42,160 nt of DNA from a virus. Shown here one piece after another: positions 364 through 27,800 of this stretch. The DNA lies in IMG/VR virus record IMGVR_UViG_3300030104_005147, positions 1 to 42,160 of that record. One strand, given 5' to 3'. The number at the start of each line of letters is the position of its first letter. Position 1 is the stretch's first letter. Both the position numbers and the translations under genes were made by a program. The notes under the pieces were generated by a model. That model saw only the letters and a program-made list of their open reading frames with translations. It did not search any database and was not told the origin of the DNA.

Positions 364-366
364 TAC

Positions 367-406
367 ATAGTTTTCCACAATTTTATACTTATCTGTGGAA
401 AACTAT
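367..406. repeat. 13-bp perfect inverted repeat containing two TTTTCCACA boxes
   Basis: ATAGTTTTCCACA (367-379) is repeated as its exact reverse complement at 394-406, with a 14-nt spacer. There is no T-tract after the right arm, so it does not look like a rho-independent terminator. The conserved core of each arm is a cyanobacterial-type DnaA box, so a paired protein-binding site is more likely. Confidence 0.85.
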
Positions 407-675
407 AAGGAAAAGTATTAATTAAGGGTTTAAAATGGTTAAATAAATAGTACCCTTCGTTATATAAGTTTTCCACAATGTTGTTAATAACTTGATGTAA
501 TTGTGTGGAAAAGTGTTAATAATGTGTGGAAATCTCTGTGGAAAGTATCATTTTGGTAGTGATCTAAGCGAGCGTATTATAACACAAACGCTCTGAAATA
601 TACAGAGATTCTTTATATTTTGTAATAAGATTGGTTTTTTTAGTTGTGGATAACTCACATAAATAAGACCACTAC

Positions 676-705
676 TTGACAATAATTCGATTATTATGTT
701 AGACT
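676..705 (+). promoter_or_regulatory. Sigma70-like promoter upstream of the 57-aa gene
   Basis: A perfect -35 TTGACA (676-681) is followed after 18 nt by TAGACT (700-705), a 4 of 6 match to TATAAT. Initiation would fall near 711-712, giving a leader of about 25 nt before ATG 736. The bases just after it, TAAGTAACACTCT (708-720), recur after the perfect promoter at 1184, which supports both as real start regions. Confidence 0.55.
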
Positions 706-735
706 ACTAAGTAACACTCTCACGGCACTAATCCC

Positions 736-1715: not shown

Positions 1716-2501
1716 ATGGCAAAAGGATTTACAGTAAAAGCAAATGCTCCCACTCAGAAAAAAGAAGAGTGGGATATTGCTGCTATTAAAGAAAGAATGA
1801 AAGGTAAGACTATAGTATTCTGCTTACCTGGTAGAGGATGTTCATTCATATTCTTAAAGAATTTTGTACAACTATGTTTTGACATGGTACAGAATGGCAT
1901 GAGTATTCAGATTAGTCAAGACTACTCATCAATGGTTAACTTTGCTCGATGCAAATGTTTAGGTGCGAATGTATTACGTGGACCTAATCAAATACCTTGG
2001 GATGGTAAACTACAATATGATTATCAGTTATGGATTGACTCGGATATTGTCTTTGACACTAACAAGTTCTGGCAATTATGTGATCTTGCAGTTCCTGCTG
2101 ATGATAAGGATGGTAATCCAGTTGATGAAAGAGAAATTACAGCAGGTTGGTATGCTACAGAGGATGGCAAGACTACATCTGTCGCACACTGGTTAGAGGA
2201 AGATGATTTCCGCAAGAATGGTGGAGTAATGAACCACGAAACTGTGGAATCGATCAGCAAGCGTAAGAAGCCTTTCACTGTAGACTACACAGGTTTTGGA
2301 TGGGTGCTCATTAAGAAGGGAGTCTTTGAGAATCTTGAATATCCTTGGTTTGCTCCTAAGATGCAAGTCTTTGAGTCAGGTAGTGTTCAGGATATGTGCG
2401 GAGAAGACGTATCATTCTGTTTAGATGCCAAAGAGAAAGACTATGAGATTTGGTGCGATCCTCGTATCAGAGTTGGTCACGAAAAGATGAGAGTTATCTA
2501 A
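1716..2501 (+). CDS. Glycosyltransferase-like protein (GT-A fold), 261 aa
   Basis: Predicted sugar-nucleotide-dependent transferase. A hydrophobic strand (KTIVFCLPGR, residues 31-40) is followed by an N-terminal nucleotide-binding-like half and by YQLWIDSDIVF around residues 103-113, where D108-S109-D110 is the DxD motif that holds the metal and sugar nucleotide in GT-A enzymes. A late His (H255, in VGHEKMRVI) suits the C-terminal metal ligand of this fold. GT-A-like proteins of this type are common in T4-like cyanophages, but their target (virion protein, DNA or host envelope) is not known to me. It has its own perfect sigma70 promoter, starts a small operon with the next two genes, and overlaps the next gene by one base (TAATG). 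Fold call fairly firm; substrate unknown. Confidence 0.75.
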   Translation: MAKGFTVKANAPTQKKEEWDIAAIKERMKGKTIVFCLPGRGCSFIFLKNFVQLCFDMVQNGMSIQISQDYSSMVNFARCKCLGANVLRGPNQIPWDGKLQYDYQLWIDSDIVFDTNKFWQLCDLAVPADDKDGNPVDEREITAGWYATEDGKTTSVAHWLEEDDFRKNGGVMNHETVESISKRKKPFTVDYTGFGWVLIKKGVFENLEYPWFAPKMQVFESGSVQDMCGEDVSFCLDAKEKDYEIWCDPRIRVGHEKMRVI

Positions 2502-3103: not shown

Positions 3104-3111
3104 AATAAATA
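3104..3111 (+). promoter_or_regulatory. Second candidate late promoter AATAAATA upstream of gp25
   Basis: NATAAATA match 20 nt downstream of the exact octamer at 3084. Initiation near 3117 would leave a leader of about 17 nt before ATG 3134, which is also plausible for this start. Confidence 0.5.
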
Positions 3112-3133: not shown

Positions 3134-3535
3134 ATGCCTTTACAAAGGGTAAGTCAAGGTTTTAAAGATATTAGCATGACTTTTCAGGCTAATCCACTTA
3201 ATGGTGACCTTATAGGACTTAAAAATGAAAATGCCATTGCACGGGCACTAAGAAACATTGTTTTTACCCTACCAGGTGAAAAATTTTTTGATGAAAACTT
3301 TGGATCTAATGTTTCTGCTTCTCTTTTTGAAAATGTTGATGATATTAATGCTTCTGCGATCAGAGATGAGATTATACAATCAATTAACAACAATGAACCA
3401 AGAGTAGATCTTCAAAATGTGAAAATAATTCCAAATTTTGATGAAAATCAATTTGATGTAATTATTAAATACCTTATTATAGGAGCAGAGATTCCTGCTC
3501 AAGAATTACAATTCGTTCTAGTACCAACTAGGTAA
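3134..3535 (+). CDS. gp25: Baseplate wedge subunit, T4 gp25-like, 133 aa
   Basis: In T4, gp25 sits in the inner baseplate wedge and joins gp6 and gp53 next to the hub, where sheath assembly starts. The length (133 aa) is close to T4 gp25 (132 aa). The family signature is visible: a DL head, then NAIARALRNIVFTLPGEK (residues 33-50) and the FDENFG turn (about 52-57), as in the GPW/gp25 domain where a PGE..f...FG motif follows a helix. It heads the late structural block behind two late-promoter matches and is followed after one base by gp6, its physical partner in the baseplate. Confidence 0.92.
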   Translation: MPLQRVSQGFKDISMTFQANPLNGDLIGLKNENAIARALRNIVFTLPGEKFFDENFGSNVSASLFENVDDINASAIRDEIIQSINNNEPRVDLQNVKIIPNFDENQFDVIIKYLIIGAEIPAQELQFVLVPTR

Positions 3536-5585: not shown

Positions 5586-8500
5586 ATGACCGAAAAAAGA
5601 GTTCAATTTAGTAATATAGTTCAAAATCAACTTCCTGCATATGTTAGGAATGATTTTCCATTAATATCAGAGTTTCTAAAGCAATATTATATTGCTCAAG
5701 AATTTCAATCTGGTCCTATTGACCTGATTCAAAATATTGATAAGTATGTAAAAATTGATGAAACTACTAATTTAACAGAATCTGTAGTTTTAGGAGCAGA
5801 TGTTGGTGTAGAAAATACAACTATTAATGTTGATTTAATAGAATCAGAAGCAGGAACTGATGGATTTCCTGATTCCTATGGATTAATAAAGATTAATGAT
5901 GAAATAATAACATATACATCCAAAACAGCTAGTTCATTTCTTGGATGTATTAGAGGATTTGTCGGTACATGTGATTATAAGAGCGAATTAGACCCAGATA
6001 CATTAGTTTTTAAGACTTCAGTTGCTGGAGAACATAAGGAAGGTGATATAATTATTAATTTAAGTAATTTATTTCTTAAACAATTCTTATTAAAGAGCAA
6101 ATATCAACTTTTACCTGGTTTTGAAGGAAGAGCATTAAATATAGATCTTAATGAAAATGTTTTTATCAAACAAGCAAAAGATTTTTATCTAAGTAAGGGT
6201 ACTGATAGATCATTTGAAATTTTATTTAAAGCACTTTACAATGAAGATGTTAGTGTTTTAAAACCCAGAGAGCAGTTATTTACACCTTCTAATGCTGAGT
6301 ATAGGATTACAAAGGATCTGATAGTAGAACCCCTTACAGGCGATCCTACACACCTTAGAGACGCAACATTATATCAAGACGAATATGCTGATAATATTGG
6401 AAGTGCGTATGCTCCTATAACATCTGTCGAGCAATTAAATGTTGGTGCTGGTAAGACATTTTATAAGTTAAGTATCGATAGTGGTTATAATAGAGATAGT
6501 AGAGTAGAAGGGTCTATATATGGATCATTTGCATCAATTCCAAAAACTAAAATTATAGGAAAAGTATCTGCAGGAACTACTGTAATTGATGTAGATTCTA
6601 CACTTAGTTTTCCAAGTAGTGGTGAATTGTATGTAACATATGAAGATGAAAATGTTGGATTTGTTTCTTATACCTCAACATCTGTTAACCAATTTTATGG
6701 AGTTACTAATGTTTCTGGAATAATTTTAGATGGAACAATTTGTGGGATTAATACTTATGCATATGGAACTTCATCTGTAGATTCTTCAAAAGTTGAAGTT
6801 AGAATTACTAATATTTTAGAAAGTGTTAATTATCCTGATAATACATTTGGTCATAATAAGAATGAAACTGCAACAATTAATACTTTAGGTACTAAAAATA
6901 CATCATTTAAGTATAAGAATTGGGTTTATAATAATTCTCCAATTTATAGGATTAAGAACTTTGAATTAATTGATGTATCTAATTACACTTATAATGTTAA
7001 TTTAGATACCGAACATTATTTTAATTTAGGCGATACTGCTTCTATTATTACTTCTGGTCTAGAACTTGCAGAATCATACACAACTAAAATTGTTAATGTA
7101 ACTGGTGCAAAATCAATTACGATTCAAGGGCAAGGATTACTTCCTCCATTGAGTACCTATAATATTAAAAAATTAATATCAAGAACTGTTTCTAATCCTT
7201 TTCCTGAAGCATCAATTTATTCAACAAATGTTCAAAATGTTTATTCTAAACCTGTAGACATTCTTAACGGAAAACCATATGAAGGTCCAACCCATTTTCA
7301 TCCAGATACAAATAAGAAAATGGTTGGTGCAGAGCATGTAAGCACACCTCATGAAACTCTTACCACTATTAAAGGTTTAGATAAGATATTAGTTGCATCT
7401 CCATCTATACCTTCTTATGATTCTCAACCTATTAATGCGACTAAAAGATCTATCAGTTTTCAAGGATCATTTGGTGGAGATTTATTTGACATATCACATT
7501 TGTCTAATGGCACAACTATTGATGATCATGGATTTTACACTGGAGATGAGATATACTATACACCAGAAATAATAGAAAATACAGTAATTAGTCCAATTAC
7601 TGGAATTGCTGGAGTTACTACATCTATTAATTACTTACTTCCAAAAGAAGGTCTTTATTTTGTTAAAAGAATAGATTCTAGAACAGTACAATTTGCAAAT
7701 AGTCGTTCTAACATTTACAATAATCAATTTGTTTTTGTTCCAGCAAGAACTGTAACTAATCAAACAATAGAACCATATGAATTTAAGGATAAAACATTAC
7801 ATTCGCAAAAATTATTAAGAGAGATTGCTCCTCCTTCTAATGATGGTACTAAGACTAAAACTATTCATGGATTTACGGGAATATTGAATAATGGTGTTGA
7901 AATTTTAAATTATAAGTCTAAAGATATTGTTAGATATGGAGAAATTACTGATGTTGAGGTTTTAGCACCAGGAACTGATTATGATATAATTAATCCCACA
8001 GATATAAAGATTACAGATCAAGTAGGAACAGGTGCAACAGGATATCTTCATGTTAGAGGATCTTTAAAGGAAATAAGATTAAAAGATCAGGGTTATAATT
8101 ATGCAAGAGCACCTAAAGTTACTATTACTGGAGGTAATGGAAAGGGTGCAAAGGCAAGAGCAAATATGAAGTTGATTGCTAATCGTGCTACTTTTGTTGC
8201 TCAGGTTGTTAATAATAAAATAAATGTAGGTTTAGGTGCAACAAATTCTACAATTGGATTCTCTACATATCATAGATTTAATAATGGAGAAAAAGTTGTT
8301 TATATTTCAAATGGACAAAAAGGTGTTGCTGGATTATCTACAAACAATGAATATTTTGCTGGATTAAAAAATAGTACTAAAATAGCATTATACAATACCC
8401 AAAGTGATGCTCTTGCTGGTATTAATACAATTACACTAACTGATTATGGGGTAGGTACTCAATTTATTGAATCATTTAATAAAAAGTTAATTGTAGATTC

Positions 8501-11500
8501 TATTGTTATAGATGATGGTGGATTTGGATTTGCAAATAATAGAACTGCTACTCTTCCTGTTGGTATTAATACAGCATTAAATGAAATTAATATTAATAAT
8601 CATCATTATGAATCAGGGGAGACTATAAAGTATACTCCTGATGGAAGTGTTATTGGTGGATTAAATAGCGGAAATGAGTATATTGTAACGAAAGTCAATG
8701 ATAATATTTTTAAACTTTCAGCTTTTGGACCATCAAACGATAAAAACTTTAATTATAGAACTAAACAATATATTAATTTAACTACAGTTGGTGTTGGTAC
8801 ACATAATTTCAATTATCCTGAAATTAGTGTATCTCTAAGTGATGATGCAGAGCAAATTCAGGGAAGAAAGTATTCATGCGAAATTGATCCTATTTTTAGG
8901 GGTACTATTGCTTCATTTAATTTAACTGATAATGGTGTTGGGTATGGATCATCGGAAATTATTAATTTTGATAGACAACCCTTAATTGAACTTAGATCCA
9001 CAACTAATGCACAGGTAACACCTATTGTTAATGATGGAAAGATTATTGAGGTATTGGTTAATTATCCTGGAAATGGATATTATGCTTCCCCTAACGTAAC
9101 TATATCTGGTAGCGGAATAGGAGCAGAATTAGTTCCTATTATCGTAGAGGGAGTTATATCAGAAGTTAAGGTTATTAATCCAGGTGAGGGATATAATCAA
9201 AATGATATTAATGTAGCTATAACACCACCAGGAACAGGTGCTAGATTTAGATCTAATATTAAATCATGGAGAGTAAATTTAGTTAAAAAGAATTATGATA
9301 AGTTTACAGCAGATGATGGATTTATTACTACTCCAGTTAATGTTGATTATGGAGTTCAATATTCGCATTTATATGCACCTAGAAAATTAAGAGAGCAATC
9401 ATTTGCTGTCGGTATTAATACAGATACTGGGGAAACTTTATATGGTCAACCTGACTTAAAAATTCAAAATGGCGAAGAAGTTCCATCAACTTTCCATTCT
9501 CCTATTATTGGTTGGGCATATGATGGTCATCCCATTTATGGACCATATGGATATACGACTAAATCTGGTGGATCTATTAGTCAATTAAAATCTGGATATT
9601 CTATTAAAATAGGGGATAATAGACCTTCTATTGGTATTTTTCCCGAAGGATTTTTTATTGAAGATTATGTTTTTACAAAAACAACTGATGATACAATACT
9701 AGATGAAAATAATGGAAGATTCGGTGTTACTCCTGATTATCCAGAAGGAACATATGCTTATTTTGCAACAATTAATGATTCTGCAGCAGATTCTGATGGT
9801 CCTTTTGAAGGATTTAAGAGTCCTCAGTTTCCTTATTTTATAGGTGATAGTTATAATTCTAAAGTAAATGAATTTAATTTCAAAATAGGTTCTAATCAGG
9901 ATAATATTGATTTAAATACTGGCGAATGGTCAAGAAACACTACCCCTTATAATTTAATTGACGGAACTCTTCGATATGAATATCTAGATCTTCCTAATGA
10001 TTTAAAACAAACTGTTGACATTACTTCGACAACTCCTGGTGCTGTTGATAGTGTTGGAATCAGTACGGGAGGAGATTTTTATCGAATAGGTGAGTCGGTA
10101 ATATTTGAGAATAGTAGTACTCAAGGATCTGGTGCTGGTGCAAAAATATCAGTTGTTAAAGGTAAGCAAGTTAACAATATAAGTGTTGCTTCAAGTATTA
10201 TTTCAGGAGTAGAATTATATCCTTCATCTAAAGATGGTCAATGGGATATAATTTCTACCTATCCTCATAATTGGCAATTAAATGATCATATTATAGTTTC
10301 TGGATTATCTACAACTTCTACTGAATTAGGAGGTTCCTTTAATATAGGAATTACTACTAACAATTATGCTTTATCAGGATTAACAACAATTTCTACTGGT
10401 ATTGGTAATATTGCTGCAACTGGAATTGTTACTCATTTCAATGTTGAAGGAACAATCACTGCTAAACCTAATGATTTCTTTAAAATAGGATCTGAAATAA
10501 TAAAGGTTTTAAACCCAGAACCATCTAAGGCTAGGATTAGAGTTTTAAGAGGTCAGAATGGAACTGCAGGATCTGCACATACAGTAACTACTACTCTTTT
10601 TGAACAACAAAGAGAATTAAGTATTAATGTTGGATTTAATACTAATGATAATGTAAAACGTAATACTGAAATTTATTTCAATCCTTTAGAATCAGTTTCT
10701 GTTGGAGTGGGAATAGGAACAACACTTTCATTTGCTAATCCAGGAGCTGGAGTATCTGAACTCTTTGTTCCTTCCAAATCAATATACATACCAAATCATA
10801 ATTTAGAAACAGGAGATAAGTTAACATACAATGCAAATACTGGAACAGCTCTTTCTGTTAGATATACTGCAGGATCATCGATAGTATCATTAACTAATGG
10901 ACAAACACTTTATGCTGCTAAAATTAATTCTAATTTAATTGGAATATCTACAGTAGTTGTTGGATTAGGTTCTACAGGATCTTCTTTTGTTGGTATAGCA
11001 AGTGCTTATAAAGAATCTTCTACTTTATTCTTTAGTGGTATTGGAACTGGAGTTTATCATAGTTTTAAAACAAATTATGCTCCTATAACTGGAAAAATTA
11101 AGAGAAATTTAGTAACAGTATCAACTGCAAGTACTCATGGTTTGATAAGCGGAAACAATATTGAAGTCGATATAAATCCAGAAAATATTATTACCTATAA
11201 AGTAGTTTATAATGATTATAATAGGCGTATTGTAATTAATCAAAGATCTTTTGGTAATGCTGAAGTTGATGTTGATACTAATTCAATAACAATTCTTCAA
11301 CATGGGTACTATACTGGACAGAAGGTTATTCATACTGCTGCAACTCCTTCTGGAGGGTTATTAGATAATGGAATGTATTATGTTGTAGTAGTTGATGATG
11401 ATACTATTAAACTTTCAGATACTTTTTATAACTCTTCATTATTTAAACCATTTATTGTAGATATTACAAGTGCTTCTGCGGGAATAATAGGTCCAATTAA

Positions 11501-14500
11501 TCCATCTATTACTGGATACAAGAATTCTACAATTCAGTTTAATCTTTCTGATTCTTCTCTTGCATATTCTAAATTAACTACTTTATATTCTGCATTTGAG
11601 TTGAATTTCTATACTGATGAAAATATGACCACAATATGGGATAGTGGTAGTTCAGATGGAGAATTTTTTGTTAATAGAAACGGAAAGGTAGGTATAACTA
11701 CAGATGCAAATACTACTTTAAAAATTAATAGCGATACTCCATCTACATTATATTATAAATTTAGTCCTATATATGAATCTGATATTCCCGCAGTAAAAGA
11801 GCAAATTATAGTTGATAGAGAAAATGTTAAATCTAATCAGATTTATTCAGATGAAAGTAAGTTTAATGGAGAACATGCAATTACAGTTGGTGTTGGATCA
11901 ACAAATACATTTACATACACTTTAAGTGTTGATGCTGAAAAATCTTCTTATATTTCATCTACATCTGAAATTGATTATACTACTGATTCGGAATTTGCTT
12001 TAGGTCCAATATCTAAAGTTAAGATGATTTATGGTGGAAATAATTATTATAATCTTCCTGGTATTTCTACTATTAGTACTTTATTTGGAAAAAATGCCAT
12101 TGTTTATTCTGAAAGTACATCTATAGGAAAAATTAATCATACTGAATTGAATAGTGTTGGATTTAATTTTCCTACTGATAAAACTTTAAGTCCATCTTTG
12201 AATTTACCTCAAGTTATAAATGTTGATGCTCTTCAAGCTATTGAATCTATAGGAATTACATCTGTTGGAAGAGGATATTCTTCTGCACCTTCGTTACTTG
12301 TATTTGATGGTAAAACTGGTGAGCAAGTAAAAGGATTGGATTTATCTTATGATTTATCCACATCTTCAGTAACCATTTTATCAAATACTGCTGGTGTTAA
12401 TAATACTCCACCTAAAGTTTTGCCAGTTAGAAATAGCAATGGAGTAGGAATTAGTACTATTAGTTACAATGCATCAACAAGAGATGTAACAGTTAGTCTT
12501 GAAGTTGGATTTGGTACAGGAGTTGTATTCCCATTTGCTTATGGCGATAAAGTAATGATTGAGGGTGTGAGTGTAGGTGTTGGATCTACTGGTAAAGGAT
12601 ATAATTCTGAAAATTATGATTATCAATTGTTCTCTTTAACATCAGTTTCTCAAAATCCAGGTGGAATTGCAACAGTAAGATATAATATAAGTGAACATTT
12701 CCCTGATAGTATTACTACTCCAGGTACTATTGATATCTTTAATTCTTCAGGTAGAATTATTCCCGAAAAACATTTCCCATCTTTTAATGTTGAATTAAAA
12801 TCAAAAGAATATTTTGTAGGAGAAAATGTTACTTCAAACTCCGCTAGTGGTAGTGTTGAATCATGGAATTCTGTAAATGGAATACTAAATGTAACTTCTA
12901 ATGATAATTTCGCAGTTGGAGAAGTTATAATAGGATCTTCATCAGGAAGTCAAGGATTAGCTTCTTCAGTATCTTCTTATAATTCTAGTATTGAGTTAGA
13001 TTATTTCTCTGTAATTAAGAATGGATGGCAAAATGATTCTGGAGTTTTAAATAATAATCTTCAAAGACTTCAGGATAATGATTATTATCAGAATTTTTCA
13101 TATTCTCTTAAATCTAGAGTTCCTTCTGATACTTGGCAAGATGTTGTTGATTCTTTAAACCATACTTTAGGATTTAGAAATTTCTCAGATTTCCAAGCAG
13201 AATCATCTAATCTTGGATCATATGGTATAGTTGGTAGTCAAGTTCTTTTTGATGCGAGTGGGGGTGCTGATAAGAGTGGTATTAGCACTAATACCAGTGC
13301 TAACCCTCCTGGTGGTAAATGGGTAATGTCCAGTACTCAGGGTAGTGCTAATGTATCACAATCACCTATAACAGTAAGACCTATAAATGATTCAGGAATT
13401 ATTGATAGAATACAAGATTTAGTAGGTTACGCTAATTTAAATTCTGTTTATGATTTTGAAATTGGTACCGAAAATACTATAAATTCGGCAACAATTTCTA
13501 ATGAGATTGTTTTATCAGGATCTAGAGTTCTTACTGATTATTTTGAATCAATTGGTAATAGAGTTCTTTCAATCGATGATATAAGTAGTGAATTTAATAG
13601 TTCTCCACGAACAACAACATTTGGAGTTGTTTCCACTTTTGATTTAGAAGATGTTAGATCACAAAAGTTTATTACTTATGTTAAAGATAAGAGATTTTAT
13701 AATACAAGACAATTAATGATTGTTGATCTTGTTCATGATAATTATATTGGATATTTAAACCAATATGGTCGTCTTGAAAATGTTTACGATTTAGGATCAT
13801 TTGATTTTAATATTACTGGAACTCAAGGACAGTTATTATTCTATCCTAACAAATTCCAAGTCAATGATTTTGAAGTTACTGCATTATCATATAATATAAA
13901 TGATAATCTTTTAGGAATAGGTAATAGTTATTTTGGTGCTGCAGCAGAGATTAAAACCAGTAGTGTTAAAGTAGAGAGTACACCTACAACAATTGTTAGT
14001 CTTGCAAGTACTTATCGTGCAGCAAAAGTTTTAGTATCTCTTACTGCAGATAGCACTAAAATTGATGCAGGTGGAGAATTTGAATTTGATGAACTTAATA
14101 TTTTAAATAATGGAACAGATTTAGAAATAATTGAATATCCTCAATTAATTACAAGTCCATCCGCAAATAATCCTATACCAGGATTTGGAACATATTCTGC
14201 TTATATTGATGGATCATTAATGAAGGTTGATTTCCATCCACATACCAGTACAGTTGGAGTAGGAACAACATCTATTGTTAATACGATACAAGTTGCAATA
14301 AGTAGTGAAACTTCTACTGGAATTGGTACATTTGACCTTAAACATGCCAAGATCGAAGGTAGGTCAACATCTATTAGTTCTTCTGGATCTCCTACAGAAA
14401 ATGTAATTGGAAGTTATGTTAATGATTATGATGCAGCATATTTTGTAGTTCAAATATCAGACACTACTAATGATGCTTATTCATTCTCTGAAGTAATTAC

Positions 14501-17500
14501 TATTGATGATTATGATAGTTCAGATGGAAGTGGTGATACTTATAATACTGAATATGGAATTTTAGAATCTGTTGCTGGATTAGGTACTATTGGAACTAGG
14601 ATTACAGGAGCAGGAGCAGGTAATGATGCAGTAGTGGAATTGGTATTTACACCTCTTCCTAATATTGATACACATGTTAATGTGTTCATGAATGCATTAA
14701 GAATCCAAGATGATTCTAGAGATGTAATAAGTCTTGAGAATGCAACAATACAGACTGAATATGGCGAATACTTTGGTACAGAAAGAGATATTAAGAGAGC
14801 ATTTGGTCTTACTCATCAAACTAATCCTATTTTTGAAAGAAGTTTCACTGGAAACAGTACAGATGATGTTAATTTAACAACTGATACTATTCAGATAGCA
14901 AATCATTATTTTGTAACTGGTGAAGAACTTCAATACATCCATGCTGGAGCTGGCACAAGTCAAGCAATAGGAATTGCTTCTACTGATGGATTTGTTGGTG
15001 TAGGAACTACTGATAAATTACCTTCTAATGTTTTTGCTATCAAACTTAGTGAAGATAAAATAAAACTTGCAGCAACTGCTCAAAAAGCATTGATGGGTAT
15101 TCCTAATGCTGTTGATTTAACACATGTTGGTATTGGTACATCTCATAGATTTGTTTCCAAGAATCAGAATTCAAAAGTACTTGTAACTTTAGATAATATT
15201 ATTCAGTCTCCTATTGTATCTACAGCAGTAACTACTCATCTTAATGATCAAGTATTTACGACTAGTGATATTGTTGAATTTGCAGGAATTACTTCATTCT
15301 TTGGTGGAGATTTGATTAGAATTGGTAATGAAATAATGAAGATTGAGGGTATTGGAGTTGGTAATACAAATTCAATTAGAGTTAGGAGATCATGGTTAGG
15401 AACTTCACTTGCTGGATATAGTACAGGTGATGTTATTACTAAGGTTATTGGTAATTATAATATTGTTGAAAATACTTTGAATTTTGTAGAAGCACCTTAT
15501 GGAAATGTTCCAATAGGTAGCATCACTAATCCTCCTGATGATAGAGATTGGACTGGAATATCTACGGGTTCTCATTTCCAAGGTAGATCATTTATGCGTT
15601 CTGGTATACCTAATACCGCAACGGAAACATATGCTAGAAATTATATTTTTGATGATATTTCATCAGGATTTACTGGCACTGAAAGAGATTTTGCTTTAAC
15701 TTCTGCAGGATCAACAGTAACTGGCATTGAAAATGATAATGCTATAATTTTAATTAATGATGTATTCCAAGCACCAGGAAGAGATCCTAATGATTATTTA
15801 ATAGAAGAAACAGGATCAACAGGTATTACAACTATTTCATTTACAGGAACTGCATCTTCAATTGCTTCTGATGTTAATACATCTAACTTACCTGTTGGTG
15901 GAGTTATTGTTTCAGTCGGATCTACTGAAGGGTTTGGTTATCAACCATTAGTTGCTGCTGGAGGTACTGCTTTAGTATCTGCTGGTGGAACGATTTCATC
16001 TGTTTCTATTGGTAATAGTGGTTCTGGTTATAGATCTGGTTCTCAAATTGCTAATGTTGGTATTCAAACTCAAGATTTAAAGGGAACTACTATTATAGGA
16101 ATCGGAACTGCAGTAGTAGAGGGAGGACATGTTACTGGTATTGCAGTAACTAATTCTCAAGTATTTTATGCCCCAAGAGTGGTAACTAATGCTGAATATA
16201 ATAACTCTACTGGTCAGTTAATTGTAACTACATCTACTGTTCATGGATTAAATGTTGGTAGTGAAGTATTAGTATCTGGAATTGCATTTACTTGTACATA
16301 TTCAAGTTCTGCTCCAAGGGACATCTCTAATTTCACTTATAATAATGTAACAGGAAAAGCAGTTGTAACTACTTCTACTCCACATGCATTATCTGTAGGT
16401 AAGGATGTCATCTTTACTGGAATTGCAATGACATGTGGTTTGGACAATGGTTCATCTACACATGTATACCCAAGAACCACTGATCCTAATTATTCTGGTT
16501 CTGTAGTTACGGAAGTTGTTTCTCCTACAGAATTTGAAACTAATGTTGGTATTTCTACAGTGCCTACATTCTACCAGTCTGGAGGAACAGTACAAAGATC
16601 TTTAATGACCCCAAGAGCAACTGATCCTGCAGCAACAGGAACAGATGTTGTGCAAATATTAGATTCTACTACATTTGCTATAAATGTTGGTATTTCTACT
16701 ACATCACATCTTTATGCCAGAGGTGGTAGTGTTACAATGCCAATGGAAGTTGTTATCGATTCTCCACTTTCATACTCAAATATTCCTCTACAATATAGTT
16801 CTTCTTCTGTATCTGGAATTGGTTCTAATGCAACTATTGATGTGGTAGTTGGACAAGGATCAAGTGTTATTGATTTCACTATTAAAAATAGTGGATATGG
16901 ATATGGTAATAGTGAAATTTTAACTTTACCTATTGGGGGAACTACAGGAATACCAACTACTTCTGGATATAAAGAATTCCAAGTTAATATTGAAAATGTA
17001 TTTACTGATGAATTTACTGGTTGGTCGATAGGAGAATTGCAATCATTAGATGATATTTCCTATCTCTTTGATGGTGGTAGATTATTGTTCCCATTAACTC
17101 AGTCAGGTGAAGTTATTTCAATAAGAGCAAGTAAAGGATCTGTTATTAGTATTCAAGATACTCTTCTGATATTTGTAAATGATGTTCTTCAAACACCTGG
17201 TAAGGGTTATAAGTTTGATGGTGGAAGCACTATAACGTTTACTGAAGCACCTAAAGCAGGAGATACATGCAAGATAGTCTTCTATAAGGGTAGTGGTGGT
17301 CAGGATGTTAAGTTTAGAGATATTGAAGAACCTGTTGAAGTAGGTGATACTTTAGAATTATATGCAACTCCACCAACACCATCTTACTTAGATGAAGATC
17401 CAAGGGCAGTCACAAATATTAAATCTACTAATAATGTAGATACCATTGCTTATTATGGTCCAGGAATTGTAGGAGATCCTAATTTAGAAAGACCCGTTAA

Positions 17501-18632
17501 TTTAAATAGACAAACTGAGGATATAATCCTTAATGGAAAAGAAGTTGCAAAGGATAGATCATTATATGAACCACGAGTTGTCCCTTCAGCAAATATTATT
17601 AAGTCTGTTGAAGTAGGTTCAACTAAATTATATGTTGATAATGTAAGACCTATATTTGATTCTCAAAATGAAAGTGATTTAAATCTTAATTTCCAAAATA
17701 AAGTTACTCTTACATCCCAAGATGTAAAGGTAGGTGCTTCTGCTACTTCTGTAATTTCTACTGGGGGATCTGTTACATCTATTTCTATACTTGATGGTGG
17801 AAGTGGATATATATCTACTCCAAATGTAGTTATTTCAAATGCTGTTGGATTAGGATCTACTGCTATTGCTACTGCAACAGTATCTGCTGCAGGAACAATT
17901 AGCTCAGTAAATGTATCATATGCAGGTACAGGTTATACTGAAAATCCTCAAGTACTAATAGAACCTCCTGTAACACTCACTGAAACTAATGATGTTGATT
18001 CTTACATTGGTGATTATGGTGTTGTTGTAGGATTTGGAACTACAACATCTAGCAGTGTTGATAAGATGATTATGGATTTATACATTCCAGTATATTCTGA
18101 TCTAAGAGATACAAAATTAGTTGGAACTGCAGTTACTCTAAGTTCTTTAGATGTTGGAGATTACTTTATGGTCTTTGCATCTAATGCAGGGTCTGCGACT
18201 ACATCCATAACTTCTAAAGATGTGAATGGAAACACAATTGGTGTAGGAACACAATTCATTGATAACATATATCAAGTAAGTGCTTCTACTATTCAACAGA
18301 GAGATGTGGTAGGTGTAGGAACTACTGCTGTAAGAAGAGTTTATGCTAATATAAGTGGTCTTTCAACAGTTACTTTTGGAAGTTCTAATCTTACCTTTGA
18401 TTCTACCAACTTCACCTTTGATAATGATGGTGAGGGTGCTGGAAGTGGATTTGTTGGAGTTATGACAGCTTCTAACTTCTTTGGTAACTTTAGTTGGGGT
18501 AAGATTACCTTAACAGGAAGATCTGAAAGTACTCAATATAATACTTACCCTGATGATGGTATAAGTGGAATCTCTACATGGCCTGTAGTACAACGAACAT
18601 CTCCATTGAAGTCTGTTAATTATATTATCTAA
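5586..18632 (+). CDS. Giant virion structural protein, 4348 aa, in the gp7 position (baseplate/tail, multi-module)
   Basis: One uninterrupted 13-kb frame. The N-terminal ~290 residues look like a baseplate attachment domain, and the location after gp25-gp6 is where T4 has gp7 (1032 aa); gp7 equivalence is inference. Visible modules: 'IGxEII...RG' repeats (about 68-140, 325-385, 1621-1675, 3225-3290); an HxH...H....H cluster (H570, H572, H584, H589); 'HxxxTGExVxY' repeats (near 648, 896, 1005, 1737, 1905, 3106); GxGY beta repeats (near 836, 1162, 1200, 2228, 3479, 3770, 4071, 4115); a YHYH-like motif GWAYDGHPIYGPYGY (about 1309-1323); and a central block around 2495-2530 (NDYYQNFSYSLKSR). The repeats suggest an elongated beta-rich fibre. 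There is no signal peptide or membrane segment. It is probably an extended tail or baseplate appendage; adsorption is a guess. Confidence 0.85.
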   Translation: MTEKRVQFSNIVQNQLPAYVRNDFPLISEFLKQYYIAQEFQSGPIDLIQNIDKYVKIDETTNLTESVVLGADVGVENTTINVDLIESEAGTDGFPDSYGLIKINDEIITYTSKTASSFLGCIRGFVGTCDYKSELDPDTLVFKTSVAGEHKEGDIIINLSNLFLKQFLLKSKYQLLPGFEGRALNIDLNENVFIKQAKDFYLSKGTDRSFEILFKALYNEDVSVLKPREQLFTPSNAEYRITKDLIVEPLTGDPTHLRDATLYQDEYADNIGSAYAPITSVEQLNVGAGKTFYKLSIDSGYNRDSRVEGSIYGSFASIPKTKIIGKVSAGTTVIDVDSTLSFPSSGELYVTYEDENVGFVSYTSTSVNQFYGVTNVSGIILDGTICGINTYAYGTSSVDSSKVEVRITNILESVNYPDNTFGHNKNETATINTLGTKNTSFKYKNWVYNNSPIYRIKNFELIDVSNYTYNVNLDTEHYFNLGDTASIITSGLELAESYTTKIVNVTGAKSITIQGQGLLPPLSTYNIKKLISRTVSNPFPEASIYSTNVQNVYSKPVDILNGKPYEGPTHFHPDTNKKMVGAEHVSTPHETLTTIKGLDKILVASPSIPSYDSQPINATKRSISFQGSFGGDLFDISHLSNGTTIDDHGFYTGDEIYYTPEIIENTVISPITGIAGVTTSINYLLPKEGLYFVKRIDSRTVQFANSRSNIYNNQFVFVPARTVTNQTIEPYEFKDKTLHSQKLLREIAPPSNDGTKTKTIHGFTGILNNGVEILNYKSKDIVRYGEITDVEVLAPGTDYDIINPTDIKITDQVGTGATGYLHVRGSLKEIRLKDQGYNYARAPKVTITGGNGKGAKARANMKLIANRATFVAQVVNNKINVGLGATNSTIGFSTYHRFNNGEKVVYISNGQKGVAGLSTNNEYFAGLKNSTKIALYNTQSDALAGINTITLTDYGVGTQFIESFNKKLIVDSIVIDDGGFGFANNRTATLPVGINTALNEININNHHYESGETIKYTPDGSVIGGLNSGNEYIVTKVNDNIFKLSAFGPSNDKNFNYRTKQYINLTTVGVGTHNFNYPEISVSLSDDAEQIQGRKYSCEIDPIFRGTIASFNLTDNGVGYGSSEIINFDRQPLIELRSTTNAQVTPIVNDGKIIEVLVNYPGNGYYASPNVTISGSGIGAELVPIIVEGVISEVKVINPGEGYNQNDINVAITPPGTGARFRSNIKSWRVNLVKKNYDKFTADDGFITTPVNVDYGVQYSHLYAPRKLREQSFAVGINTDTGETLYGQPDLKIQNGEEVPSTFHSPIIGWAYDGHPIYGPYGYTTKSGGSISQLKSGYSIKIGDNRPSIGIFPEGFFIEDYVFTKTTDDTILDENNGRFGVTPDYPEGTYAYFATINDSAADSDGPFEGFKSPQFPYFIGDSYNSKVNEFNFKIGSNQDNIDLNTGEWSRNTTPYNLIDGTLRYEYLDLPNDLKQTVDITSTTPGAVDSVGISTGGDFYRIGESVIFENSSTQGSGAGAKISVVKGKQVNNISVASSIISGVELYPSSKDGQWDIISTYPHNWQLNDHIIVSGLSTTSTELGGSFNIGITTNNYALSGLTTISTGIGNIAATGIVTHFNVEGTITAKPNDFFKIGSEIIKVLNPEPSKARIRVLRGQNGTAGSAHTVTTTLFEQQRELSINVGFNTNDNVKRNTEIYFNPLESVSVGVGIGTTLSFANPGAGVSELFVPSKSIYIPNHNLETGDKLTYNANTGTALSVRYTAGSSIVSLTNGQTLYAAKINSNLIGISTVVVGLGSTGSSFVGIASAYKESSTLFFSGIGTGVYHSFKTNYAPITGKIKRNLVTVSTASTHGLISGNNIEVDINPENIITYKVVYNDYNRRIVINQRSFGNAEVDVDTNSITILQHGYYTGQKVIHTAATPSGGLLDNGMYYVVVVDDDTIKLSDTFYNSSLFKPFIVDITSASAGIIGPINPSITGYKNSTIQFNLSDSSLAYSKLTTLYSAFELNFYTDENMTTIWDSGSSDGEFFVNRNGKVGITTDANTTLKINSDTPSTLYYKFSPIYESDIPAVKEQIIVDRENVKSNQIYSDESKFNGEHAITVGVGSTNTFTYTLSVDAEKSSYISSTSEIDYTTDSEFALGPISKVKMIYGGNNYYNLPGISTISTLFGKNAIVYSESTSIGKINHTELNSVGFNFPTDKTLSPSLNLPQVINVDALQAIESIGITSVGRGYSSAPSLLVFDGKTGEQVKGLDLSYDLSTSSVTILSNTAGVNNTPPKVLPVRNSNGVGISTISYNASTRDVTVSLEVGFGTGVVFPFAYGDKVMIEGVSVGVGSTGKGYNSENYDYQLFSLTSVSQNPGGIATVRYNISEHFPDSITTPGTIDIFNSSGRIIPEKHFPSFNVELKSKEYFVGENVTSNSASGSVESWNSVNGILNVTSNDNFAVGEVIIGSSSGSQGLASSVSSYNSSIELDYFSVIKNGWQNDSGVLNNNLQRLQDNDYYQNFSYSLKSRVPSDTWQDVVDSLNHTLGFRNFSDFQAESSNLGSYGIVGSQVLFDASGGADKSGISTNTSANPPGGKWVMSSTQGSANVSQSPITVRPINDSGIIDRIQDLVGYANLNSVYDFEIGTENTINSATISNEIVLSGSRVLTDYFESIGNRVLSIDDISSEFNSSPRTTTFGVVSTFDLEDVRSQKFITYVKDKRFYNTRQLMIVDLVHDNYIGYLNQYGRLENVYDLGSFDFNITGTQGQLLFYPNKFQVNDFEVTALSYNINDNLLGIGNSYFGAAAEIKTSSVKVESTPTTIVSLASTYRAAKVLVSLTADSTKIDAGGEFEFDELNILNNGTDLEIIEYPQLITSPSANNPIPGFGTYSAYIDGSLMKVDFHPHTSTVGVGTTSIVNTIQVAISSETSTGIGTFDLKHAKIEGRSTSISSSGSPTENVIGSYVNDYDAAYFVVQISDTTNDAYSFSEVITIDDYDSSDGSGDTYNTEYGILESVAGLGTIGTRITGAGAGNDAVVELVFTPLPNIDTHVNVFMNALRIQDDSRDVISLENATIQTEYGEYFGTERDIKRAFGLTHQTNPIFERSFTGNSTDDVNLTTDTIQIANHYFVTGEELQYIHAGAGTSQAIGIASTDGFVGVGTTDKLPSNVFAIKLSEDKIKLAATAQKALMGIPNAVDLTHVGIGTSHRFVSKNQNSKVLVTLDNIIQSPIVSTAVTTHLNDQVFTTSDIVEFAGITSFFGGDLIRIGNEIMKIEGIGVGNTNSIRVRRSWLGTSLAGYSTGDVITKVIGNYNIVENTLNFVEAPYGNVPIGSITNPPDDRDWTGISTGSHFQGRSFMRSGIPNTATETYARNYIFDDISSGFTGTERDFALTSAGSTVTGIENDNAIILINDVFQAPGRDPNDYLIEETGSTGITTISFTGTASSIASDVNTSNLPVGGVIVSVGSTEGFGYQPLVAAGGTALVSAGGTISSVSIGNSGSGYRSGSQIANVGIQTQDLKGTTIIGIGTAVVEGGHVTGIAVTNSQVFYAPRVVTNAEYNNSTGQLIVTTSTVHGLNVGSEVLVSGIAFTCTYSSSAPRDISNFTYNNVTGKAVVTTSTPHALSVGKDVIFTGIAMTCGLDNGSSTHVYPRTTDPNYSGSVVTEVVSPTEFETNVGISTVPTFYQSGGTVQRSLMTPRATDPAATGTDVVQILDSTTFAINVGISTTSHLYARGGSVTMPMEVVIDSPLSYSNIPLQYSSSSVSGIGSNATIDVVVGQGSSVIDFTIKNSGYGYGNSEILTLPIGGTTGIPTTSGYKEFQVNIENVFTDEFTGWSIGELQSLDDISYLFDGGRLLFPLTQSGEVISIRASKGSVISIQDTLLIFVNDVLQTPGKGYKFDGGSTITFTEAPKAGDTCKIVFYKGSGGQDVKFRDIEEPVEVGDTLELYATPPTPSYLDEDPRAVTNIKSTNNVDTIAYYGPGIVGDPNLERPVNLNRQTEDIILNGKEVAKDRSLYEPRVVPSANIIKSVEVGSTKLYVDNVRPIFDSQNESDLNLNFQNKVTLTSQDVKVGASATSVISTGGSVTSISILDGGSGYISTPNVVISNAVGLGSTAIATATVSAAGTISSVNVSYAGTGYTENPQVLIEPPVTLTETNDVDSYIGDYGVVVGFGTTTSSSVDKMIMDLYIPVYSDLRDTKLVGTAVTLSSLDVGDYFMVFASNAGSATTSITSKDVNGNTIGVGTQFIDNIYQVSASTIQQRDVVGVGTTAVRRVYANISGLSTVTFGSSNLTFDSTNFTFDNDGEGAGSGFVGVMTASNFFGNFSWGKITLTGRSESTQYNTYPDDGISGISTWPVVQRTSPLKSVNYII

Positions 18633-18658: not shown

Positions 18659-20527
18659 ATGGCAAAGTTAGGTATATCGACAGGAACCACACCAGATGAC
18701 GGAACAGGTACTAGTCTGTTAGTAGGTGCTGCAAGAATTAATAATAATTTTGATGAAATATATGATTATTTTGGAACTGGTACTAATCTTGATTTTGCGG
18801 GTGGTAGATTTGTAGAAACTGATGCTGGTATTCATACATTATCCAGTGTTGGTATAGGAACTACTAATCCAACGTATTCTCTCACGGTAAAAGGTAATAC
18901 TGAGGTAACTGGTCTTACAAGTTTTGTAAATCCAAATGATGGTACAGATAGATTAGAAGTAGCATATTATGCTCAACCTACTCTTAGATTCCTGTCTGGT
19001 AGTGCTATGGCAGGAACCATTGAAGGTCAAATGGGTGGGTTGCATTTAAAATCAGTTGCTACAAAGGCAATTGAAATTAATGACAATGCTGCAGTATTTG
19101 GTAGTGCTACAAACTATTATGATGTTCAATTAAATAAGGCTAATAATGGTTCTACAAAGGTTGGTGCAAATATTCAATTCCTTCCTTCAACGGGTATTGT
19201 AAGTGCAACATCATTTAGAGGTGATGGGTCACAATTAACTGGTATTTCTGCTAGTGGTACTGGTGGTAAGTTTGTTGCTAATGCTACTGGTATTCATACA
19301 TTATCAAGTGTTGGTATAGGAACTACAACTGCAACTGGTGCTGTTAATACAGGTAATACATCAGTATTAAATGTTGGTGTTGTAACTGCCAATAATTTTT
19401 ATGGTACTTTCAGAGGTGATGGAACTAATATTACTGGTATTGGTGTTACTAATGTTAAAAATGATGGTGGTGATGTAAAACTTCAAACTAATACTTCTGG
19501 TGTAAGTATTACGGGTATTGCAACTGCAACAAGTTTTGTTGGAGATGGATCAGGATTAACGGGTATTGTTGGTTCTGGTGCTGGTATTGTTGTTAAAGAT
19601 AGTGGTAGTGCAGTAGGAACAGCAGGAACAATTAACTTTGCTGAGAGTTTATCAGTAAGTGCTATTTCTGGTGCTGCTGTTACGGTATCATTTACTGGAG
19701 ATACTAATTATTGGGGCCAGAATGATACTGGTATTCATACTACAGGGAGTGTTGGTATAGGAACTACTAATGCTAGACCTGGATATCATTTAACTGTTGA
19801 TGGTAATTTAAAGTTAATTGGTGCGGGGCAAGGTGGTGGTACTGTTGGTGGGGGTAATCTTGATGTTACTGGTGTATCTACATTCCTGCAAACAGTAGAT
19901 TTTAAATCAGACTTTTATGTTCCTGATTCCAAAACAGCACAGTTTGGAGATAATAATGATTTATGGATATGGCATGATGCCACTGGTCATTCCATGATTA
20001 GGAATGGTGGAGGGGATTTAAGAATACGATCAAACTCGTTCAGAATTAGATCTTTTGATGACTCAACGGATTATTTAACGGCAGACTTAACTGGGGAGGT
20101 TTCTCTTTTCCATAATAACCAAAAGCGATTAGCAACTTCTGGAGTGGGAGTTACCGTTTATAGTGGAAGTTCTACTGAAGCAAAAGTTGATATTAAACCA
20201 GGTACTGGATCTTTCAATGGTGCTGTAGGTGCTGCTACAACTATTGATGAATGGAAGTTATCAGATAATGAGTTCAGATCTGCTGAATATCAACTTACTG
20301 TCACTAATTCTAATGGTGGATATGTACAATCACAGAAAGTTTTGGTAATGCATGATAATACTAATGCATTCTATAGCGAATGGGCAGTAATGTATGGTGG
20401 ACAAGGAGCTAGATTAGTTTCAGTTGGTGCAACTACATCTGGTGGTTATGTAAGATTAGAAGTTACTCCACAAGCAGGATATTCTGGTATAACCAGTTAC
20501 TTCTTCAGTAGAACTGCTATAGGTTAA
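18659..20527 (+). CDS. Tail-fibre-like structural protein, 622 aa
   Basis: The N-terminus (MAKLGISTGTTPDDGTGTSL, then ARINNNFDEIYDYFG) resembles the attachment end of marine phage fibres. Typical fibre repeats follow: SSVGIGTTNP (about 62-71) and similar copies, and three 'GDGSxLTGI' units (near 187, 252 and 295). A later block, FGDNNDLWIWHDATGHSMI followed by GDLRIRS, matches the 'FGDsnDLxIyHD' element common in marine phage fibres. The last ~90 residues (from about 530) form a globular-looking domain that recurs as the bulk of the 123-aa protein at 40516. No ribosome binding site is obvious. It is followed after one base by the protease-like gene. Role inferred: part of the tail appendages, possibly receptor binding. 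Confidence 0.8.
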   Translation: MAKLGISTGTTPDDGTGTSLLVGAARINNNFDEIYDYFGTGTNLDFAGGRFVETDAGIHTLSSVGIGTTNPTYSLTVKGNTEVTGLTSFVNPNDGTDRLEVAYYAQPTLRFLSGSAMAGTIEGQMGGLHLKSVATKAIEINDNAAVFGSATNYYDVQLNKANNGSTKVGANIQFLPSTGIVSATSFRGDGSQLTGISASGTGGKFVANATGIHTLSSVGIGTTTATGAVNTGNTSVLNVGVVTANNFYGTFRGDGTNITGIGVTNVKNDGGDVKLQTNTSGVSITGIATATSFVGDGSGLTGIVGSGAGIVVKDSGSAVGTAGTINFAESLSVSAISGAAVTVSFTGDTNYWGQNDTGIHTTGSVGIGTTNARPGYHLTVDGNLKLIGAGQGGGTVGGGNLDVTGVSTFLQTVDFKSDFYVPDSKTAQFGDNNDLWIWHDATGHSMIRNGGGDLRIRSNSFRIRSFDDSTDYLTADLTGEVSLFHNNQKRLATSGVGVTVYSGSSTEAKVDIKPGTGSFNGAVGAATTIDEWKLSDNEFRSAEYQLTVTNSNGGYVQSQKVLVMHDNTNAFYSEWAVMYGGQGARLVSVGATTSGGYVRLEVTPQAGYSGITSYFFSRTAIG

Positions 20528-23285: not shown

Positions 23286-23292
23286 CTAAATA
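23286..23292 (+). promoter_or_regulatory. Candidate late promoter CTAAATA (tandem with AATAAATA) before gp8
   Basis: CTAAATA is followed at once by further AAATA units in a short tandem, 23 nt before ATG 23316. It is one of the clearer late-promoter candidates because it opens the gap before gp8. Confidence 0.6.
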
Positions 23293-23315
23293 AATAAATA
23301 AAAAGTTCTGTCAAA

Positions 23316-24881: not shown

Positions 24882-27800
24882 ATGCCACAATCTACCAATT
24901 TAAATGTATCACCCTACTTTGATGACTTTAATGCTGCCAATGATTTTCATAAGGTATTATTTAAGCCTGGGTTCCCTGTTCAAGCAAGAGAACTAACTAC
25001 ATCTCAGTCCATACTCCAAAATCAGATTGAGAAGTTAGGACAACACTTTTTTAAAGAAGGTGCTAAAATAGTTCCAGGAAATACTACATACCAATCTAAT
25101 TATACGGGGATACAATTAAATAATACTTTTCAAGGAGTTCCTGTTGCAGCATATGCTAGTCAATTAATTGGTACAAAAATTACTGGTCAGATATCAGGTG
25201 TAACTGCATATGTTAAAAATATTATATTAGGATCTAATTCAGAGAATGGCAATTTAACTTTTTATGTAGATTATATAAGTTCAAGTACAGTTAATAATTC
25301 AACTTCAGAATTTAGTGATGGTGAAGAATTAACTTGTAATACTACCATTACTTCTGGATTACTTGGTAATTCTACAATTTCTGCTGGTACTCCATTTGCT
25401 TCTACGATACAATCAGGATGTTCTATAACAGGTACCGCATTTTCAATAGAAGAGGGTGTATATTTTTTACATGGTAATTTTGTTAATGTTGCAAGTGAAA
25501 CTCTCATATTAGATCAATATACAACATCTTCAAATTATAGAGTTGGTTTAAATATAAACGAAGAAATAATTACACCAGATATAGATCAAACTTTAAATGA
25601 TAATTCTCAGGGATATAATAATTTTGCAGCACCAGGAGCAGATAGATTAAAAATTACTGCATCTTTATTTAAAAAATCATTAGATGATTTAAATGATACT
25701 AATTTTGTAGAATTAGCAACTATTCAAACTGGAAATTTAAGAGGTCCAGAACCTACTTCAGCCAGTCCTTTTAAAAAGGAATTAAAAGATAGTATGGCAA
25801 AAAGAAGTTTTGAAACTTCTGGGGATTATACCATAGAGCCATTTGATACTACTGCAAAAGATTCTCTTAATGATAATGAAGGAAATGATGGATTATATGA
25901 TAGACAAACATTTACTTCACAAGGTAATATTCCAACAGAAGATACATTTGTATATAAAGTATCTGAAGGTGTTGCATTTGTAAAAGGATATGAGGTTAGA
26001 AAAGTAAGACCTACTCTTATCGATGTACCAAAGCCACGTACAACATTAACTATTGACGATGAATCTATAACTTATAATACTGGTCCTACTTTAAGATTGA
26101 ATAGAGTTTTTGGAACTCCAGGAATAACTACAGCTCATAATACTGTAGTTAGTTTGAGGGATAATAGAATTGGTGCAGGAAATACTATTGCTGCTGGTAA
26201 GGAAATAGGTGTAGCAAGAATTTATGATTTTTCACTAGAAAGTGGATCTTATAATGTTACATCTAATTTAAATGAGTGGGATATATCGTTATATGATATA
26301 CAAACAACTACTGAAATTACTTTAAATCAACCAAGTACATTTACAACTCCTACTTATATTAGAGGTGTTAATAGTGGTGCTACTGCATTCCTTTTTAAAC
26401 CTGTTACAGATAATGCTACTATAGAAGTTTATGAAACTAATGGTGATTTTATAAAAAATGAACCAATAGCAGTTAATGGCAATTTAAGTGGAAAAATTGC
26501 AATAGCAGTTACTTCTCATAGTATATCAGATGTAAAATCCATATTTAGTACTAGAGACGTAGGTTCTACACCATATACAGGTACTGTTGGTCTTTCATCT
26601 ATCTTCAATGCTGATGTAGTTCAATCAGTTTCAGTTAATATTGGTATTGCTACTATTAGTGCTGCTTCTGGTGGATTTAGTACTATTACAAGTCCTAACG
26701 AAAGATTTCCTGGTGATTTAGTTAAAGTAGATAATTTGGTTCAATTTAGTAATTCTGCTAAATCAAATGATCCTACTTATGGTAAAGTGACTGCAGTTGG
26801 AACAAATACTGTAACTATTACAAATGTTGCTGATGTTGATGGTATAGTTAATGGAGATTTACCAACTACCATTTTCGATGCTCAGGATCTTAAAGTATTA
26901 ACTACAGATATAACATCGTCGTCTGATAATACTTTATTTACTCATCTTCCTAAAGATAATATATCAAATGTCAATTTAACAAATGCAAGTCTTAGTATTA
27001 GAAGAGCATATACTGTTAATATTGTTGACGGCAAAACTAATATAGTTAATGCGGGAGAAAATGAAGTATATTTACCTTTTGATGCTGAAAGATATTCTTT
27101 AATAAGAACGGATGGAGTTACTGAAGTATTAACTGGGGATAAATTTATTATAACAAATGGTGGAAGGACATTACAAATTGGTAATTTAGGGTCTAATTCT
27201 AATAATGCAACTCTTGTTGCTACACTAACTAAGAGAACACCAACATCCAAAACTAAAATAAGAAATAGAGTTAATTCTATTATCGTAAATAAGTCTAAAT
27301 TAGCTGGATCTGGTATTGGATCAACTAGTTTAAATAATGGATTAGATTTTGGTAATTATCCTGTTGGTACACGAGTGGAAGATGAAATTATTTCTCTCAA
27401 TACTCCAGATGTAATTCAACTTCATGGTGTTTTTGAATCTGGAGATATTAATGATCCAACTGCACCAAAAGCAACCCTTAATACAATTAATAGTTCATCA
27501 ACAACTACTGCAGAATATGTTATTGGTGAAAAAATTACAGGGCAAACAACTAATGCCGTTGCAGTAGTAGCAAGTATTACAACTTCAAATCAAATTGAAT
27601 TTATATACAAAAATGATGGGGAGTTTGAAGAAGGAGAAACAATAACTTCAACGGAATCTAAAATAAATGCTGTTATAACAACCATAAATGAAGATAGTTT
27701 TGATATAACAGATAGGTATTCATTTGTTACTGGACAAGAATTAACTCAATATAATTATGGATATATTGTTAAAGATCCTAATGCAGATGCACCTGCTAAA

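Follow-up and report, generated by a model that had tools for sequence, protein, structure and literature searches.

With moderate confidence, we interpret a non-coding locus that carries a cluster of DnaA boxes beside a conserved promoter as a replication origin of T4-like cyanophages, at which host DnaA would be used. A more specific form of this reading is put forward tentatively: the locus may be a hybrid origin, in which an R-loop-type leftward promoter (element E) is fused to a near-consensus DnaA-box array, the phage initiates with host DnaA and outcompetes the host chromosome, and lineages acquire and lose the array. The literature found holds no experimental account of the replication start in the abundant marine T4-like cyanophages and one single-origin prediction (Syn9). 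No earlier description of DnaA boxes in cyanophages was found in the literature searched, in which subscription journals were thinly covered. A stretch of ~300 bp, a conserved promoter, and isolates with boxes (Syn9, S-PM2 and S-SM2) or without them (Bellamy and SynMITS9220M01) make this question directly testable. If the reading is true, T4-type phages tap the host initiator, unlike T4 as known, which suggests a simple route for infection to compete with host chromosome replication.

The window (the whole stretch of DNA that was analysed, 42,160 bp) is an IMG/VR fragment from a T4-like cyanophage. It carries the baseplate genes 25 and 6, tail genes and a terminase gene, and its closest records are Synechococcus phages, including Bellamy and S-SM2, together with a marine single-cell virus contig. 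The entire array and element E are located in one gap between two small open reading frames (Table 1). Rfam gave no match anywhere in the window, and none over 300-1720 even at an E-value of 1.

Table 1. Features of the locus, with positions in the window unless an isolate is named.
Feature	Coordinates	Strand	Basis and remarks
Left-flank ORF, 60 aa	181..363	+	no family match
Non-coding gap with the entire array and element E	364..735		372 bp; ORF end at 363, next plausible-ORF start codon at 736
DnaA box 1, TTTTCCACA, exact	371..379	+	kept in 13-sequence alignment
DnaA box 2, TTTTCCACA, exact, facing box 1	394..402	-	motif search, alignment
A+T-rich element GGTTAAATAAATAG, between both box pairs	437..450	+	conserved in alignment with relatives; holds AATAAATA
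DnaA box 3, TTTTCCACA, exact	469..477	+	motif search, alignment
DnaA box 4, TTTTCCACA, exact	504..512	-	motif search, alignment
DnaA box 5, ATTTCCACA, 21 bp from box 4	525..533	-	motif search, alignment
DnaA box 6, CTTTCCACA, 12 bp from box 5	537..545	-	motif search
Element E, conserved non-coding element, leftward sigma-70-type promoter	543..624	-	alignment, profile, promoter scoring
Element E, -10, TATAAT	576-581	-	TGn at 582-584
Element E, -35 position	599-604	-	weak in window copy, TTGACA in most relatives
DnaA box 7, TTATCCACA, E. coli-type	645..653	-	motif search
Right-flank small ORF, 57 aa	736..909	+	read from sequence; start region kept in close relatives (alignment)
PHROG 1574 gene, synteny anchor	1716..2501	+	unknown function; weak glycosyltransferase match
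Gene 25-type baseplate wedge gene, synteny anchor	3134..3535	+	gene annotation, locus comparison
Array in Syn9	52553-52597
Array in S-SM2	58050-58093
Array in S-PM2	19231-19264
Array in DSL-LC03	80123-80579
Box pair in P-TIM68	58194/58208		single exact pair

Seven TTTTCCACA-like 9-mers are located at 371-653, four of them perfect and three with one mismatch. The exact boxes form two pairs that face inward, 371(+)/394(-) and 469(+)/504(-), and boxes 1 and 2 are embedded in a perfect 13-bp inverted repeat (367-379/394-406). Over the window as a whole, 9-mers with no more than one mismatch are about as frequent as expected (21 vs 18.5); their clustering is unusual. Seven fall within 300 bp. Markov simulations of the whole window at orders 1 to 3 never gave more than three, and when the local sequence was modelled at first order, 3000 draws averaged 0.18 and reached 3 at most. 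In the viral collection, the real pattern returned 75 matches and the reversed-letter control motif returned 0. Chance was rejected on the basis of these simulations and this control. The preliminary description of this DNA had reported the extent of the box cluster, the split between exact and mismatched copies, the two inverted pairs and an E. coli-type box on the minus strand, and all of these were reproduced. The non-coding location within the gap at 364-735 was likewise upheld, and the further match that it mentioned near 22905 is real and isolated. Its term 'AT-rich' is only mildly true, with a G+C content of 30% vs ~29-38% in most 1-kb bins. That the inverted pairs are RNA hairpins or terminators, or a product of chance, is extremely unlikely. 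The perfect repeat at pair 1 speaks for a hairpin, but no terminator was called at this repeat. Spacing and orientation vary in helical steps among relatives while the 9-mers are fixed, which argues for a DNA-binding pattern rather than paired stems.

The array 9-mers are well supported as putative binding sites for host DnaA, and this is the part of the earlier interpretation, origin or DnaA sink, that stands. The assignment is based on the published box sequence, the oriC-like spacing, the mismatch positions, and the presence of dnaA in hosts, none having been found in cyanophages. The earlier identification of TTTTCCACA as the DnaA-box form of cyanobacterial origins agrees with the literature, in which assays confirmed predicted sites in Anabaena and Cyanothece (PMC4674748). 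Same-strand spacings up to 45 bp in the phage clusters among the matches listed are 9, 11-13, 19-23, 31-33 and 42-43 bp, and none was observed at 14-18, 24-30 or 34-41 bp. The corresponding spacings in 30 cyanobacterial oriC clusters beside dnaN are 9, 11-12, 20-23, 29-32 (one 34) and 43 bp. The boxes are therefore helically phased as in host oriC, and the two types of locus share TTTTCCACA boxes, same-strand spacings of 9, 11-12 and 20-22 bp, and divergent spacings of ~19 bp. Mismatches in the phage boxes are mostly at positions 1-3, like those of host oriC and unlike those of background matches. The dnaA gene was present in all 14 host-type genomes checked. A DnaA match occurs in 42 phage-collection records, whose organism tally names no cyanophage group. 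An initiator of the phage's own, as in iteron plasmid or phage origins with their own Rep/DnaA, was not found in a search that covered DnaA matches.

The phage locus also exhibits certain differences from cyanobacterial oriC. It is without dnaN, it is coupled to element E, and it contains many convergent pairs at 13 and 23-24 bp, which are common in phages and rare in host oriC. Its boxes are nearer the consensus: exact boxes account for ~60% (56/93) in phage clusters from loci fetched without regard to boxes, vs ~17% (20/116) at host-family oriC beside dnaN. The higher exact-box count of 271/345 is inflated because that phage set was partly selected by the exact pattern. A captured host oriC is not supported, since in a comparison made mainly at the box level the two have only box spacing in common and hosts seldom show the convergent pairs of the phages. 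The convergent pairs would fit a phage-encoded regulator whose sites merely resemble those of a DnaA-box binder. This explanation is very unlikely, given that sequence, spacing and mismatch positions are all as in host oriC and that the 9-mer is ascribed to cyanobacterial DnaA (PMC4674748). A triple-box pattern was also observed in 46 bacterial contigs (L281-L326), mainly from Clostridia, Acidobacteria and Spirochaetes with one cyanobacterium, where it possibly marks their own origins. Three host-type genomes of 1.6-1.7 Mb (L438-L440, 1501-1553) contain a single inward box pair with box starts 43-44 bp apart and similar intervening sequence; in G139, the one of the three that was checked, this pair is distant from dnaN.

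The array recurs in T4-like cyanophages (Kyanoviridae). In an alignment of the window with 12 relatives, the boxes are kept and the intervening DNA is mostly diverged. When loci were fetched through the neighbouring PHROG 1574 protein, and thus blind to the boxes, a cluster of at least three boxes was present in 25 of 80 loci, the window itself left out; among loci with at least 1.9 kb upstream, and with one exact box also required, the proportion was 11 of 27. A search for inverted box pairs found gene 25, gene 6 or PHROG 1574 on 58 of 118 stretches among the matches listed. All 95 distinct clusters among the matches listed, pooled from the PHROG 1574 set, the inverted-pair set and a triple-box scan, are 5´ of the anchor gene (gene 25 or PHROG 1574) at a distance of ~0.8-9 kb, although these loci are interrelated and do not represent 95 independent events. 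The one-sided position is real, since the downstream side of the anchors is present too in most loci. Two checks proposed with the preliminary description came out in favour of the array: it occupies the same place in relatives, and no comparable clusters occur elsewhere in six whole genomes, in which clusters of at least three boxes with at least two exact copies were found only at this locus. In most of the complete genomes examined, exact boxes are nowhere packed more densely than at this locus.

The array is missing at the locus in nine of 15 isolates (Bellamy, SynMITS9220M01, S-B05, S-CAM9, S-SSM7, P-SSM2, P-SSM4, S-T4 and ACG-2014f), and a tenth, S-SCSM1, has a partial array of one exact and one near box. 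Host DnaA thus cannot be universally required. Annotated genes overlap the array in two isolates, namely tRNA-Asn and tRNA-Leu genes in S-PM2 (L279 5178-5334, equal to S-PM2 19177-19333) and a 53-codon ORF in Syn9 (gp86; L278 5478-5636), and these annotations may be spurious. Dense clusters of 8-10 boxes were also observed on contigs without a link to T4-like genes (L151 6064-6200, L192 3445-3690 and L193 2485-2775); the L192 cluster is upstream of a primase-like ORF, and L193 has an integrase.

Element E emerged from the alignment with 12 relatives as another conserved block, to the right of the boxes. A profile of E matched once, and at the corresponding position, in all six whole genomes (five had supplied seeds, and the DSL-LC03 match is weak), and it also matched many loci that had been fetched only through their boxes. 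A sequence model searched against 16 whole records gave one strong match in 11 of 15 cyanophages (E-value 7e-6 or better), all 5´ of gene 25. It gave no match in T4, P-SSM2 or S-T4 and marginal matches in ACG-2014f and P-SSM4. When the viral collection was scanned for E first, 36 of 41 loci had at least three boxes no further than 320 bp away, and these loci are mostly from one sub-group; the background was at least two boxes in 1.2% of other windows.

The minus strand of E has the promoter layout TTGACA, 17 bp, TGn and a TATAAT/TAGACT-like -10, of the host sigma-70 type and pointing away from the genes. At least nine of 12 consensus bases are matched in 90% of copies vs 11% of shuffles, and TGn is present in 46 of 48. 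A rightward promoter was rejected, as nine of 12 was reached by 2% on the plus strand. The window copy combines a perfect -10 with a poor -35, and AGCGAG-type repeats overlap the promoter. E is retained in box-less isolates such as Bellamy, SynMITS9220M01 and S-B05, suggesting that E is the more fundamental component and the boxes a part that is gained and lost, and that DnaA is at most facultative.

Host DnaA could instead act as a transcription factor at E or at the late-type promoter described below, switching a non-coding or antisense early RNA on or off. Such a DnaA-controlled promoter is consistent with the placement of the boxes, mostly 20-220 bp downstream of the E start region, with the conservation of E even in the absence of boxes, and with the lack of an annotated gene leftward of E in most isolates. 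However, no conserved leftward gene under the control of E was found, up to seven or eight boxes in highly variable layouts exceed what most operators use, and the boxes are on both sides of E in some relatives. We regard this alternative as quite unlikely.

Within the A+T-rich element between the box pairs, AATAAATA is similar to the late-promoter-like motif of this phage ~30 bp ahead of structural genes. The element is a candidate for a late promoter, for a portion of an unwinding region, or for both, and its conservation may accordingly be transcriptional in part. Motifs of the form [AC]TAAATA are located ~25-30 bp before structural gene starts at 3104, 18629, 22991, 23286-23293, 32906, 35206 and 36664 of the window and are probable late promoters. 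The instability of the A+T-rich stretch is in the top 3-5% of the window (95-97th percentile), which is not extreme. A change of GC skew at the locus, suggested earlier as a sign to look for, did not appear: no switch was observed in Syn9, S-SM2, S-PM2, DSL-LC03, P-TIM68 or SynMITS9220M01, and GC skew was dropped as uninformative for the origin question.

T4 is not known to use host DnaA, and no DnaA-box cluster was found in the T4 genome. The T4 origins oriF and oriG consist of a promoter with an A+T-rich unwinding element just downstream, where the hybridised transcript primes synthesis (PMC3016281). The cyanophage locus resembles oriF/ori(uvsY) in its proximity to gene 25, in a promoter with A+T-rich DNA downstream (PMC3016281) and in the related replication proteins. 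It differs in that the T4 promoter is of the MotA-dependent middle mode, whereas E has a sigma-70 -35/-10 layout, and in that the T4 origin flanks gene 25 on the opposite side. For this reason, direct synteny with oriF was considered but retained as a loose link only. For the same phage group, a passage in a review (PMC2984593) gives a single theta origin as predicted for Syn9, which is similar in proposing a single origin.

The reading as an origin relies on the agreement of E and the A+T-rich element to its left with the oriF layout, with the boxes in the same stretch. Host RNA polymerase would fire from E early in infection, and the transcript would cross the boxes and the A+T-rich element. 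Together with host DnaA on the boxes, the transcript might melt the duplex so that the phage replisome can load. Lineages that keep E without boxes would initiate from the promoter alone. Several observations were counted against an origin: the array is absent from nine of the 15 isolates, several of which keep E, clusters of at least three boxes were found in 11 of the 27 loci that were fetched blind to the boxes and had enough upstream sequence, P-SSM2 and S-T4 are without E too, the A+T-rich stretch is unexceptional, the GC skew is silent, and the -35 in the window copy of E is poor.

The E. coli datA locus is a DnaA reservoir with dense DnaA boxes outside the chromosomal origin. The phage array is like datA in having dense boxes away from the chromosomal origin, and unlike it in being on a phage genome and adjoining a conserved promoter; titration here is conjectural. 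As a datA-like decoy, the array would have no role in phage replication, and rising phage copies would draw DnaA off host oriC and halt new host rounds. Boxes nearer the consensus than those of host-family oriC are consistent with such a sink, and the survival of array-less lineages is expected for an optional host-takeover function. In contrast, the locus has a fixed position, oriC-like same-face spacing and an adjoining conserved promoter, none of which a sink would require. We consider a pure sink unlikely; on the sequence comparisons, the conservation of E and the fixed place of the array point to an origin or a regulatory site instead. Under the origin reading too, the near-consensus phage boxes should compete with oriC for DnaA.

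Another conserved non-coding element lies at 1238-1394 of the window, before the PHROG 1574 gene, with a core CCCTAACCTACAGAGGTGACAAATCGA following a TATATAAAA stretch. Neither a conserved RNA structure nor an Rfam match was obtained for it. The profile of this element has 237 matches over the fetched loci; it shares the strand of E in 91 of 91 loci, at a median distance of 649 bp, and is also found in P-SSM2 and S-T4, both of which are without E. Two perfect 12/12 sigma-70 promoter matches are present on the plus strand before the PHROG 1574 region (1184-1212 and 1665-1693). The tail region contains two very large ORFs, at 5586-18632 (4348 aa) and 24882-32318 (2478 aa), the first of which occupies the position of the gene 7 baseplate protein.
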